This document shows positions 55,807-64,000 of a DNA stretch of 64,000 nt, in pieces. Each line of letters starts with the position of its first letter. The stretch's first letter is position 1. Source of the stretch: Aliikangiella coralliicola (GTDB lineage Bacteria > Pseudomonadota > Gammaproteobacteria > Enterobacterales > Kangiellaceae); contig NZ_ML660169.1 of the NCBI RefSeq assembly GCF_007004725.1, positions 62,001 through 126,000 on the forward strand. The letters run 5' to 3'. The notes beneath the pieces are model-generated. The model had not been told where the DNA came from, searched no databases, and saw only the letters and a list, made by a program, of their open reading frames with translations. A program made the position numbers and the translations under genes.

Positions 55807-56334
55807 TCATTCTGTAAAAACTCGCTTGCGTATTTTTCTATTTCCCAAAATAACACCGAATAAACCGCCCCAAAAAGCGCTGCTCAACAATGTAAAGAGA
55901 ACCGGCAAAACAATAGTAACGGTATTAAGCTTGGCGGCCCCCCAGTATGCCAGCGGGCCAAAAACACAACCGAGAATAACGGCCACTTTAACGGGCCGAC
56001 TTTGCAACCAGCTATAACAAGCCGGGAAAGATAAGGCGAAAGTCAACCAGAGTAATAGCAACCAAACGGGGATCACATTATTATCCGCAGAAAAACGAAT
56101 AACTGCGAAATGGTCTAACAACCAATCAAATAGAATTCCGACAGAGGCAATAGCAAGCCTTGTGAGATAGCGGGAATAGCACGCACTCTTCGACTTACTT
56201 GGCACCAGCTTTATTTCGGTCAGAATAAATACCAACAGAATAGGAATGACTGATAAATATAAAATCGAATCACGTCCTAACACAGCCAAAAACCAGCACG
56301 CCTGAAATACACACCATGAAAACCAGAGAGGAAT
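55807..56334 (-). CDS. DUF2878 membrane protein, probable ATT start
   Basis: 175 residues. The first ATG/GTG/TTG in frame is the TTG at 56289, but the family N terminus lies before it: IPLWFSWCVFQACWFLAVLG is clearly part of the protein. A GAGGAG ribosome site lies seven bases before an ATT at 56332-56334, which is the only sensible start; ATT is used naturally for infC. A stop precedes it in frame. About six membrane helices (DWLLDHF and PVWLLLLWLTFALSFPACY are family-like). Last gene of the lipid-modification operon, one base after the stop of the methyltransferase gene. Confidence 0.8.
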   Translation of the reverse strand: MPLWFSWCVFQACWFLAVLGRDSILYLSVIPILLVFILTEIKLVPSKSKSACYSRYLTRLAIASVGILFDWLLDHFAVIRFSADNNVIPVWLLLLWLTFALSFPACYSWLQSRPVKVAVILGCVFGPLAYWGAAKLNTVTIVLPVLFTLLSSAFWGGLFGVILGNRKIRKRVFTE

Positions 56335-56335
56335 T

Positions 56336-57736
56336 TTAAATCTCCTCGTGATATGTTTGTGAAATGTTCAATTTATCTTCATTGTCTCCAGGTTTGTTGC
56401 TATATGGAGAGAGCGTCATCGGCACCCGAGCCATTGGCTTAACTAAATGCAATTGCACGTTACTGATAACACGTTCCCTGAATCCGCCTTCGCAATAACA
56501 AAGATAAAATTCCCACATTCTCATAAACGCATCACTAAATCCCTGACTTTTAATTTCCGCACCCTTATCAATAAAGTTTTCACGCCACTTTTTAAGTGTC
56601 AAAGCATAGTGAATGCCCAGATCCTCAAGGTTGAGAACACGCATGTCCGTTGATTTGCGCAAGCTATCACTAATTGCATCAACTGACGGAATACAACTCC
56701 CTGGAAATATATACCGCTTGATAAAGTCAATTTCTTTTTTTGCCGACGAGAAGCGTTGATCGGAAATCGTTATTGCTTGTAACAACATTTCTCCATTTGG
56801 TTTTAAAAGCTCGCTGCACTTTGAGAAAAAAGTATCAAAGTATTGGTGGCCGACGGCCTCAATCATTTCAATAGAAACCAGCTTATCATAAGTTTCTTTT
56901 CCTTCCAGCAGTCGATAATCTTCCTTTAGTAAAAATACTTTGTCAGTGAGTCCTAATATTTCAATTCGTTTTTTTGCATAAGCATACTGCTCATCAGAAA
57001 TTGTTGTAGTTGTCACCTTACAACCAAATTTTTTCGCTGCATAAATAGCAAAACTCCCCCACCCAGTTCCAATTTCAAGTAGGTGATCATTTTCATTTAA
57101 CCGCAATCGCTGACATATTCTCTCTAGCTTATTGAGAGACGCTTGCTTCATCGACTCTCGTTCATCAAAAAAGATACCTGACGAATACATCATAGTTGAG
57201 TCGAGAAACGCTTCAAAAAATTCATTTCCCAAGTCATAATGAGCAACGATATTTTTCCGGCTCCCTTTTCGGGTATTCTTGTTGAGCCAGTGAAACATTT
57301 TCTTAATTGGTGAGGTTAACCTGGCAAGCCCACTCTCCATAGAATCCATGACACTTTGATTAACTGCAAATAGCTGGATGACTTTTGTGAGGTCAGTCGA
57401 CTTCCAGAAACCATTTATAAATGCCTCACCGGCCCCCACGCTGCCACCTAACGCGACAAACCAATAAAACTCATCGTGAACAACTTCAATATCTGCGCTC
57501 AACTCACTCACTTCATTTCCATGAAACTGGTAATTTTCGTCGCCATCAATTAATGTCAAGTTGCCATAACGAAGCTCAGCAAGCTGTTTAAGCATTGCAC
57601 GCTTTAACAGTGACGTGGCTTTGCTTCGTTGCAAATTTTCTTGTCTAAAAATACGCTCCATAGTACCTTTAGCACTCAACGCCTGCGCAGCAACGACTTT
57701 TTGCGCCATAGTCTTAACCGATAACTCATTATTCAT
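56336..57736 (-). CDS. cfa: Cyclopropane-fatty-acid-synthase-like methyltransferase
   Basis: 466 residues. An N-terminal helical part precedes the class I SAM-binding fold: [56 protein letters not shown] and [14 protein letters not shown], which are cyclopropane synthase hallmarks. It methylates double bonds of phospholipid acyl chains in the membrane. Enzymes of this subgroup in ChrR regulons are linked to furan or cyclopropane fatty acid formation, so the product is not certain. It overlaps DUF1365 by eight bases. Confidence 0.92.
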
Positions 57737-58568
57737 AATCTTTGTTCCAGTTTAGAGATTGTTGTAGTTTGGGGTGGGAGTAAAATGGCACACGTTTCAA
57801 CCAGAGCTTGAGTGCTTGCCAATAAATTCCAAACGTCACTTTCAACGTCATAAAGGGATATTGAGTGAGCGCCCTGGCCAGCGAACGAGAGCTGATCTCG
57901 CTCGCTTCAAGAGCCAGTGTGGCGTCAAAAACTTTATTACTTTTGCTACCCGACTTGTCAAAGTCGTTCGAAGATTCACCAACGTCTGTTGAGGTTGACG
58001 ACATGAAAACTGTCAGTTTTTCTCCCGGTATTAAGAAACGCCAATCACATCTCATTTGCATCGGCAAAAATGGGGAAACGTGAAAAGCTTTGCTAAAGTT
58101 CATTCGAATTGAATCAGTCGAGCCATGTTGCAATTGCTGTTGCCGATTATCAAATGTGTAGCAATATCTTTCATCCCAGGGCGTATTATTAATTTGTGCT
58201 AATAAAAAATCTAAGTTGCCGTTATCTTCGTTAAAACAATAGTAAAAGGTCACCGGGTTAAAACAATATCCAAAGTAGCGCAAATGCGTCAGCATTCGAA
58301 CAGGGCCTTTATGGCTGACGCCATACCGCTTTTGAATCTCGTCAATCACAGCTTTTTTAACATTGCCACTATCATCACATAAGTAGTCCTGGCTGCGAAA
58401 ACAAGCGATGTTTCGTTTATCCTTTGACCACAACCAAAAGGGTTCAAACAACCTGGGTAACTCATCCAGGTCAACATACAGCATACAAATGCCATAGTTA
58501 AACTGATGAGACTTCGGCTTGTGACGCCTATGCTGAACGCGGCCAAAGTATATTTTGCTTTTCATCAC
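57729..58568 (-). CDS. DUF1365 protein, partner of fatty acid modification
   Basis: 279 residues. [46 protein letters not shown] and [26 protein letters not shown] [20 protein letters not shown] are the standard DUF1365 blocks. Known only from clusters with the FAD oxidoreductase and the methyltransferase. It overlaps the FAD gene by 41 bases and the methyltransferase gene by eight, showing strong coupling. Confidence 0.9.
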
Positions 58569-62891: not shown

Positions 62892-62920
62892 TGATCCATT
62901 TTTGTTCTTCTACGTATTTA
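62892..62920 (+). promoter_or_regulatory. ECF (ChrR-type) promoter of the sigma/chrR operon
   Basis: -35 TGATCC (62892-62897), a 17-base spacer, -10 TATTTA (62915-62920). It would make the sigma factor autoregulated. The distance to the ATG at 63086 is about 160 bases. Confidence 0.7.
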
Positions 62921-63085
62921 TTGTTAACACACTAGGTTACAGAGTCGATTCGACAACATAAGCGAGTAAAAAAGAATCTTGACCAGAACAATAATTCCGG
63001 CAACTTGAGCATGCTTCAACAGAGACAAACAACCGATAATTTAGTATATTGGCCAATAACCAGCCTAAAGAAAAAATCGACTTCA

Positions 63086-63652
63086 ATGACTCAAAAGGTC
63101 AATGTTACAGATAGTGAACGCTGGCGAGAACACCTCAATGCTATCGCCAAACAGCATGATCGTCATGCTTTCAAGGCGTTATATTTATATTTCGCTCCAA
63201 AAATTAAATCATTTTACTTACAACATGGAATGGGAGAGAAGTCTGAAGAACTCACTCACGAAGTATTCTTGAAAATTTGGCAAAAAGCAGCCAGTTACGA
63301 TCCACAAAAAGCTAGTGTATCAACCTGGATTTTCACTATTGTCAGAAATTTGAAAATTGATTTTCTGCGAAAAAAGCGAATTGACGAAGTTAACGATGAG
63401 AATTTGCCAGATCCTGCTGAAGAAGCCAACTTCAGTGAAAAAATTAGCATCGACAGGGATAAATCAAGACTTCTTTCGGTTTTTAATCAGCTCAACGAAG
63501 AGCAACGAAACGTTTTGCAAAAAGTCTACTTCGAAGATAAAAGCCATCAAATAGCGGCCAAGGAACTAGAGATGTCACCTGGCGTGGTTAAATCTCGAAT
63601 TAGAAGTGCACTGAAAATACTGCGCGCTCATATAGGAGGTGATCGAATATGA
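63086..63652 (+). CDS. ECF sigma factor, ChrR-controlled (RpoE/ECF11-like)
   Basis: 188 residues from the ATG at 63086; the frame extends to 63005, but the family usually starts a few residues before SERWREHLNAIAKQHDRHAF. Region 2: EELTHEVFLKIWQKAASYDP and STWIFTIVRNLKIDFLRKKR. Region 4: LNEEQRNVLQKVYFEDKSHQIAAKELEMSPGVVKSR. ChrR-bound sigma factors of this group answer to singlet oxygen or organic peroxides. Its stop overlaps the chrR ATG (ATGA). It should drive its own promoter and the lipid operon. Confidence 0.9.
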   Translation: MTQKVNVTDSERWREHLNAIAKQHDRHAFKALYLYFAPKIKSFYLQHGMGEKSEELTHEVFLKIWQKAASYDPQKASVSTWIFTIVRNLKIDFLRKKRIDEVNDENLPDPAEEANFSEKISIDRDKSRLLSVFNQLNEEQRNVLQKVYFEDKSHQIAAKELEMSPGVVKSRIRSALKILRAHIGGDRI

Positions 63653-64000
63653 GTTGGGAAAGCACCAATGAAACAGGTACAAAGCAAAACGATTTGCAAT
63701 ACCATCCTGATATCGATTTATTGTTAAAATATTCAAACGGCAAACTGGCACCGGCGCTCGCGATTACAATTGGTGTGCATCATCATGAGTGCGAGACTTG
63801 CCGCCGTCAGGTTCAAGATATTGAACTGCTTGCAGGAAATTCGCTGGAGTCATTAGCCGATGAGGAAATATCTAATACTGGATTCGACAGCCTCTTAGAA
63901 GATATTCAGGCAATTCCTCAAACTTCTGAGACGGAAGTTCCAATGCAACAGACTCTATCTTCAAATGAATATGATATTTGCGCTGTTGCCGAATCAGATT
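63649..64000 (+). CDS. chrR: ChrR-type zinc anti-sigma factor, cut by the window edge
   Basis: Open to the window end (117 residues visible). The start ATG has AGGAGGTGAT, a perfect ribosome site. HPDIDLLLKYSNGKLAPALAI and the zinc ligands HHHECETC (HxxxCxxC) mark the ChrR anti-sigma domain, which binds sigma until singlet oxygen or peroxide triggers release. The C-terminal cupin-like domain should follow outside the window. Coupled to sigma by a four-base overlap. Confidence 0.9.
   Translation, partial: MSWESTNETGTKQNDLQYHPDIDLLLKYSNGKLAPALAITIGVHHHECETCRRQVQDIELLAGNSLESLADEEISNTGFDSLLEDIQAIPQTSETEVPMQQTLSSNEYDICAVAESD

Follow-up and report, generated by a model that had tools for sequence, protein, structure and literature searches.

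Analysis of a 64,000-nucleotide stretch of the Aliikangiella coralliicola genome (contig NZ_ML660169.1, positions 62,001 to 126,000; the window) revealed, at positions 55,807 to 64,000, a divergent locus in which genes for an extracytoplasmic function (ECF) sigma factor of the ECF11 type and the anti-sigma factor ChrR face genes for DUF3833, desaturase, NTF2-like, short-chain dehydrogenase/reductase (SDR), flavin adenine dinucleotide (FAD)-dependent, DUF1365, methyltransferase, and DUF2878 proteins. We regard this locus as probably the core of an ECF11 (RpoE-ChrR) oxidative-stress regulon, whose main target would be an operon for furan fatty acids that includes a desaturase. The genes, their order, the promoters, the conserved ligands, and the recurrence of the gene set elsewhere were read directly from sequence. 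The open reading frame (ORF) list and Pfam/TIGR profile matches placed all ten genes and their families where the original prediction, made from the letters of the window, had put them:

55807..56289, minus strand: DUF2878 membrane protein, the final operon gene (PF11086, E 1.8e-26)
56336..57736, minus strand: UfaM-like S-adenosylmethionine-dependent fatty-acyl methyltransferase, CMAS family (PF02353, E 7.4e-79)
57729..58568, minus strand: DUF1365 protein, UfaO-like, predicted to act in furan-ring oxygenation (PF07103, E 4.2e-79)
58528..59808, minus strand: FAD-dependent amine-oxidase/phytoene-desaturase-like protein, UfaD-like (PF01593, E 1.4e-22; best solved relative LkcE)
59805..60566, minus strand: SDR (PF00106, E 2.4e-44)
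60568..60984, minus strand: NTF2/SnoaL-like protein (PF12680, E 6.4e-14)
60984..62075, minus strand: SCD-type membrane di-iron fatty-acid desaturase (PF00487, E 3.4e-22)
62208..62765, minus strand: putative DUF3833 lipoprotein (PF12915, E 1.2e-52)
63005..63652, plus strand: ECF sigma factor, ECF11/RpoE-like (closest solved structure, R. sphaeroides RpoE, 2q1z)
63649..64000, plus strand: 5' part of the chrR anti-sigma gene (TIGR02451, E 2e-11)

The tight packing that had been noted was also confirmed, with the genes from desaturase to methyltransferase overlapping or lying 1 nt apart, and a gap of about 46 nt following before DUF2878. The chrR gene was truncated by the window end and continued for a further 377 bases to L001:11378, giving a full protein of 242 amino acids. 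A photolyase gene was found 73 bp beyond chrR (L001:11452-12858), followed by a RudS-like gene, both outside the window. The remark that no photolyase was visible was thus true inside the window, but the gene lies next door and seemed to be missing because of where the window was cut.

The sigma-ChrR switch and its promoters

Among solved structures, the sigma factor matched R. sphaeroides RpoE (2q1z) at E 2.5e-32, with the next match 20 orders of magnitude weaker (5.2e-12), and an in-frame ATG at 63086 is a likelier start than that at 63005. The chrR gene lies directly downstream, its start overlapping the sigma stop by 4 nt. Full-length ChrR aligned to R. sphaeroides ChrR (2z2s; E 2.5e-19) and carried a cupin domain (PF12973, Cupin_7; E 9e-14). 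In our reading of this alignment, H19, H44, C48, and C51 of the anti-sigma zinc site and the H-x-H, E, H set of the cupin coincided with the 2z2s ligands, which are listed for both sites in PMC6852236. With RpoE as the closest solved sigma factor, chrR adjacent, and both ligands and promoters kept, the locus bears out the sigma-E/ChrR-type switch proposed at the outset. By analogy with Rhodobacter, ChrR would bind the sigma factor via its zinc anti-sigma domain, an oxidant (there singlet oxygen or organic hydroperoxide) would lead to the loss of ChrR, and the freed sigma factor would act at TGATCC-N15/16-CGTA promoters to transcribe the desaturase operon, DUF3833, and the operon that encodes the sigma factor itself. 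Three exact matches to this motif were found inside 761 bp:

62156..62181, minus strand: ECF11-type promoter of the desaturase, TGATCC-N16-CGTA
62838..62863, minus strand: ECF11-type promoter of DUF3833, TGATCC-N16-CGTA
62892..62916, plus strand: ECF11-type promoter of sigma-chrR, TGATCC-N15-CGTA (spacer of 15, not 16)

The count expected in a 925-bp stretch on both strands is 0.0012 (Poisson p 2.7e-10 for three). Across the 7.04-Mb genome, the motif matched 12 times, 3 of them at this locus, versus 3 matches for the reversed control. It is the same as in the RpoE2 promoters of Shewanella (TGATCC-N16-CGTAAT/CGTATT), for two of which the starts have been mapped (PMC4336711, Table 1), and its spacer differs by one base from the V. 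cholerae consensus as printed, TGATC-N18-CGTAT (PMC5241685). In locus L095, an ECF11-type site likewise stands just before the desaturase, at 9936. The three TGATCC sites of the original prediction were confirmed, but its longer spacing, rendered as TGATCC-N17/18-TANNNT (92 genome matches versus 23 for the reversed control), recovered only the desaturase site and is a poor search pattern, since it lists one of the three promoters of the locus.

The genome-wide promoter search proposed with that prediction yielded nine strict sites beyond the locus, two of them outside ORFs; seven of the 12 strict matches lay inside ORFs and were taken as chance. A chalcone-isomerase-like gene (L002:928-1458; contig C1, about 645.9-646.4 kb) has one of these intergenic sites 42 bp upstream and is the only one of four such genes in this genome with an ECF11-type promoter. 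This gene is a credible regulon target because, among the 79 three-enzyme-set loci, 19 have the same family within the stretch that was fetched; in L095 it follows directly behind chrR. The other site, which marks a possible further member, stands ∼70 bp ahead of a gene for an RND-efflux adaptor (L012:1501-2734; contig C12), with a pump-like gene next. A weaker site with two mismatches (L001:13962-13987) was also seen 42 bp ahead of the RudS-like gene, in a search that ran at background (11 matches, 12.2 expected).

In three relatives (G001, G002, and G012), the relaxed motif TGATCY-N15/16-CGTA gave 19, 15, and 18 matches versus 15, 16, and 24 in the controls, which is background. Among these 52 matches, 30 loci were inspected, and 17 sites lay inside long ORFs. 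Of the 13 intergenic sites, two preceded TspO, and four had no gene after them. A photolyase-related gene, a RudS-like gene, a lipocalin, and a MerR regulator were each preceded by one site, and the other three sites stood before different genes, in one case on the sigma side of the cluster in G012. The sites before TspO (in two genomes), the photolyase-related gene, the MerR regulator, and the lipocalin are those of L181, L192, L183, L196, and L203. TspO was rejected as a target in A. coralliicola, as it was not found in that genome.

The signal may be something other than singlet oxygen, such as organic hydroperoxide, other oxidants, or nitrosative stress, in which case this would not be a light-stress system, although a furan operon would remain compatible with it. 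In Stenotrophomonas maltophilia, the corresponding system is described as affecting superoxide tolerance and leaving singlet-oxygen tolerance unaffected (PMC11832516); given this, singlet oxygen should not be assumed as the signal here. We nevertheless consider a different signal somewhat unlikely, considering that photolyase and RudS-like genes adjoin chrR, that relatives carry promoter-like sites ahead of RudS and of a photolyase-related gene, that the cupin domain needed for the Rhodobacter singlet-oxygen response (PMC6852236) is present in this ChrR, and that ChrR mediates the blue-light response of V. cholerae (PMC5241685).

The furan-type enzymes and their likely product

The furan pathway of R. 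sphaeroides and R. palustris begins with the methylation of cis-vaccenate by UfaM; a second double bond is then introduced by the FAD/NAD-binding UfaD, and UfaO, which carries DUF1365, forms the furan with O2 (PMC7380195). The FAD-DUF1365-methyltransferase genes of A. coralliicola correspond in family, assigned by the published description, and in order to ufaD-ufaO-ufaM of R. palustris (RPA2571-2569; PMC7380195), which upholds the link to Rhodobacter furan genes drawn originally. Unlike the operon described here, the published pathway starts from cis-vaccenate, and its description, as far as available, includes no SCD-type desaturase (PMC7380195). By reference to the named homologues, on which each catalytic step as well as the signal and the product is modelled, the di-iron desaturase would provide acyl chains with a cis double bond, at which the UfaM-like enzyme would methylate, leaving a shifted double bond, the UfaD-like FAD enzyme would add a conjugated one, and the UfaO-like protein would close the furan ring with O2. 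The resulting furan lipid would scavenge oxidants and may feed back on the loss of ChrR. The earlier idea of a single pathway, with the double bond made first and then methylated or oxidized, is tentatively supported, except for its cyclopropane product.

Cyclopropane synthases bind bicarbonate through Glu239, His266, and Tyr317 (PMC11387697). Compared with three solved cyclopropane fatty acid (CFA) synthases, all of which keep both residues, the methyltransferase has Gln for His266 and Ser for Cys139, while retaining the Glu and Tyr ligands. Alignment of 81 methyltransferases of this slot (its own, 17 from the family Kangiellaceae, and 63 from named loci) revealed Gln at the bicarbonate-His position in 80 and, likewise in 80, a Glu three residues before the Glu239 position, where cyclopropane synthases have Gly; at the Cys position, 67 sequences had Ser or Ala, and 14 had Cys. 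The sole exception to the Gln and Glu signatures, L104, is a locus without an FAD or DUF1365 gene. Furan lipids are thus the likelier product on this sequence evidence, because the methyltransferase lacks the bicarbonate His of cyclopropane synthases, and the cyclopropane product is disfavored. The enzyme matched only itself in its own genome at E 0.001. A second CMAS enzyme, resembling the dimethyl-furan methylase FufM by placement alone, was found in 48 of the 79 three-enzyme-set loci and is absent here.

Alternatively, the operon might make cyclopropane from the desaturase olefin and the CMAS enzyme, as the S. maltophilia operon has been read, or 10-methyl chains by a bfa-like combination of CMAS and FAD enzymes. 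The strong CMAS match (E 7.4e-79) fits this, as do the naming of both S. maltophilia enzymes as CFA synthases (PMC11832516), the pairing of a CMAS enzyme with an FAD oxidase in actinobacterial bfa operons (PMC7791843), and Aliikangiella fatty-acid profiles that include summed feature 9, possibly containing 10-methyl-C16:0. Such products nonetheless appear unlikely: cyclopropanation depends on the bicarbonate ligands (PMC11387697), the bfa genes were selected for a conserved bicarbonate site (PMC7791843), the equivalents of His266 and Cys139 are changed as described above, and the same operon includes a gene of the UfaO family, which has a known role in neither route.

The DUF1365 protein was modeled with a predicted local distance difference test (pLDDT) score of 90.6 as a beta-strand-rich fold with C-terminal helices. 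A structure search with this model returned weak matches to haem-binding nitrobindin, a haemophore, and fatty-acid-binding-like barrels, none of them significant. The only histidine kept in every aligned sequence is H13, which leaves no apparent di-iron site, and the protein (57729-58568) could be a haem-dependent or cofactor-free oxygenase.

The desaturase and its recurrent partners

The best solved relative of the desaturase is the acyl-CoA desaturase 4ymk (E 2.5e-29). H130, H135, H167, H170, H171, N277, H281, H310, H313, and H314 were invariant in 14 aligned sequences and aligned with 4ymk; we take these histidine boxes and the Asn to be the di-iron site, on the assumption that the iron-binding residues of SCD1 apply. 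An N-terminal extension of ∼50 residues, rich in Ser, Lys, and Asp (61900-62075), precedes the conserved WFD motif; most of the 14 sequences have a shorter one.

Among 80 named loci, a best-match sample (the best 80 of 592 desaturase relatives), the desaturase lay within 3 kb of an FAD gene, with DUF1365 elsewhere in the locus, in 64. By record title, these 64 belong to Pseudomonadota, Verrucomicrobiota, Planctomycetota, Gemmatimonadota, Nitrospinota, and Melainabacteria, the non-proteobacterial loci being mostly bins; six Nitrospira copies were solitary. Genes in these loci were assigned with profiles built from the window and 20 Kangiellaceae regions of 17 genomes, "in cluster" meaning within the fetched stretch. 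When a called start codon was required, all three genes were found in 55 of 73 loci, and by stop-to-stop frames in 76 of 101. Within 6 kb of these 76 clusters, ChrR was found in 11, an RskA-type anti-sigma factor in 12, and neither in 53 (some contigs being cut); four of the RskA proteins were confirmed by Pfam. In L099, L112, L169, and L164 (Xanthomonadaceae, Achromobacter, and Methylacidimicrobium), the cassette adjoins an ECF sigma factor with an RskA-type anti-sigma factor, not ChrR.

An even draw of 114 gammaproteobacterial genomes, A. coralliicola included, was surveyed for the desaturase and DUF1365. The desaturase was counted at profile E 1e-90 or better, a cut placed at an observed gap that leaves matches between E 1e-40 and 1e-90 uncounted. 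This desaturase type occurred in 12 of 32 genomes with DUF1365 versus 3 of 82 without (Fisher p 1.0e-5, or 2.9e-5 when A. coralliicola was left out). In 10 of these 12, the two genes were at most 4 kb apart: seven, A. coralliicola among them, had the desaturase on the DUF1365 strand, upstream of that gene and far enough away for an FAD gene to fit between, and three had another layout, with the remaining two on separate contigs. The proposal that the desaturase had joined the regulon in this organism is not supported, given that the desaturase-FAD-DUF1365-methyltransferase set recurs so widely and that a desaturase-containing operon under ChrR has been published for S. maltophilia. Nor is the same proposal for the NTF2-like protein, as NTF2 genes occur in ChrR-bearing relatives without the desaturase.

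Considering these patterns, we tentatively suggest, at somewhat less than even confidence, that bacterial furan synthesis recurrently involves, as a fourth enzyme, a dedicated SCD-type desaturase, carried in a transferable desaturase-ufaD-ufaO-ufaM cassette across six phyla, acting on saturated (possibly iso-branched) substrates and placed under interchangeable switches (ChrR, RskA-type, and others). Iso-branched chains are common in Kangiellaceae; furan lipids built on them are a class that we did not meet in the literature consulted. By acting on finished chains, the desaturase could give UfaM its olefins. Its use as a substitute for a missing FabA was rejected, as FabA was over the cutoff in 36 of 40 Kangiellaceae genomes, including that of A. 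coralliicola.

The desaturase could instead serve general membrane fluidity under stress and be merely cotranscribed, its product not being a substrate of UfaM. Its own promoter at 62156-62181, the presence of FabA, and the 2 of 12 class genomes with the two genes on different contigs are in line with such a role. We judge it rather improbable, however, as the FAD start lay at most 200 bp from the desaturase stop in 49 of the 73 named loci (from the best 80 of 592) whose downstream sequence reaches 3 kb or more, and in the five Kangiella-type regions fetched, from genomes in which no full-length ChrR was found, the desaturase is still joined to FAD-DUF1365-methyltransferase.

Within Kangiellaceae, a desaturase orthologue of at least 54% identity was present in 27 of 40 genomes, including A. 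coralliicola, and lay in the ChrR cluster in G001, G002, G004, G006, G012, and G014, the halves in G004 being on two contigs. All 20 genomes of the Kangiella group (g5) had the desaturase, and full-length ChrR was not found in any of them, two having a weak cupin-only match; the five g5 regions lie beside ybgA-phr. The six genomes of groups g3 and g6 had ChrR with NTF2-SDR-FAD-DUF1365-methyltransferase and no desaturase. In a quick desaturase tree of 95 sequences with many open forks, the A. coralliicola copy grouped with five Kangiellaceae members and Methylococcaceae UBA975 (support 97), all seven coming from genomes or loci with ChrR (the G004 copy on another contig). The Kangiella copies grouped elsewhere, and the G014 copy fell with Oleiphilus and Marinobacter (98). 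Because these copies stand apart from that of A. coralliicola, the cassette probably entered this family more than once, judging from the tree; old duplication and loss may account for the same pattern.

Known systems and biological meaning

A ChrR-controlled operon with a desaturase is already known from S. maltophilia, where it was shown experimentally in 2025. There, rpoEc-chrR-chrA stands with smlt2375-2367, and RNA-seq revealed the operon to be 165- to 697-fold up without ChrR and to fall back once the sigma factor was also removed (PMC11832516). It is described as containing desaturase, FAD, hypothetical, CMAS, two membrane, second CMAS, and lipocalin proteins. As here, ECF sigma/ChrR genes diverge from an acyl-CoA desaturase, an FAD oxidoreductase, a CMAS enzyme, and a hypothetical protein that occupies the place of DUF1365; unlike here, a second CMAS enzyme and a lipocalin are present, and the nine genes as annotated include no NTF2 or SDR gene. 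Its authors read it as membrane modification/cyclopropane synthesis, and the word furan does not occur in the available text (PMC11832516). Locus L143 (S. sepilia) has a similar layout.

The Shewanella oneidensis RpoE2-ChrR system shares the promoter motif and has an RpoE2-dependent operon (SO_3386-SO_3374) that unites cfa with photolyase and YbgA/RudS-type genes, but this operon lies away from rpoE2-chrR, and desaturase is absent from the text as available (PMC4336711). The light-inducible LitR region of Pseudomonas mendocina likewise brings together phrB, SDR, FAD oxidoreductase, and ufaM genes, but is controlled by MerR-type LitR, not an ECF sigma factor, and the accessible text does not mention a desaturase (PMC9758184).

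Several observations weigh against a furan operon under an oxidative-stress switch. Besides the superoxide rather than singlet-oxygen effect noted above, menadione fails to induce the S. maltophilia sigma operon (PMC11832516). The Gln signature was set only against CFA synthases, and no furan lipid from Kangiellaceae was found reported in the literature consulted. The desaturase type was absent from 20 of the 32 DUF1365-bearing gammaproteobacterial genomes, and since FabA is present, the desaturase is not the sole likely source of double bonds.

What is new here, and modest, is that the desaturase recurs as a fourth gene in furan-type operons and keeps its partners while the switch changes, together with the furan reading of such operons. 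If UfaM receives its substrate from the desaturase, bacteria poor in cis-vaccenate could make furan fatty acids on demand, the pathway would comprise four enzymes, not three, in 10 of the 32 DUF1365-bearing gammaproteobacterial genomes, A. coralliicola included, and the S. maltophilia "cyclopropane synthase" operon would be re-read.

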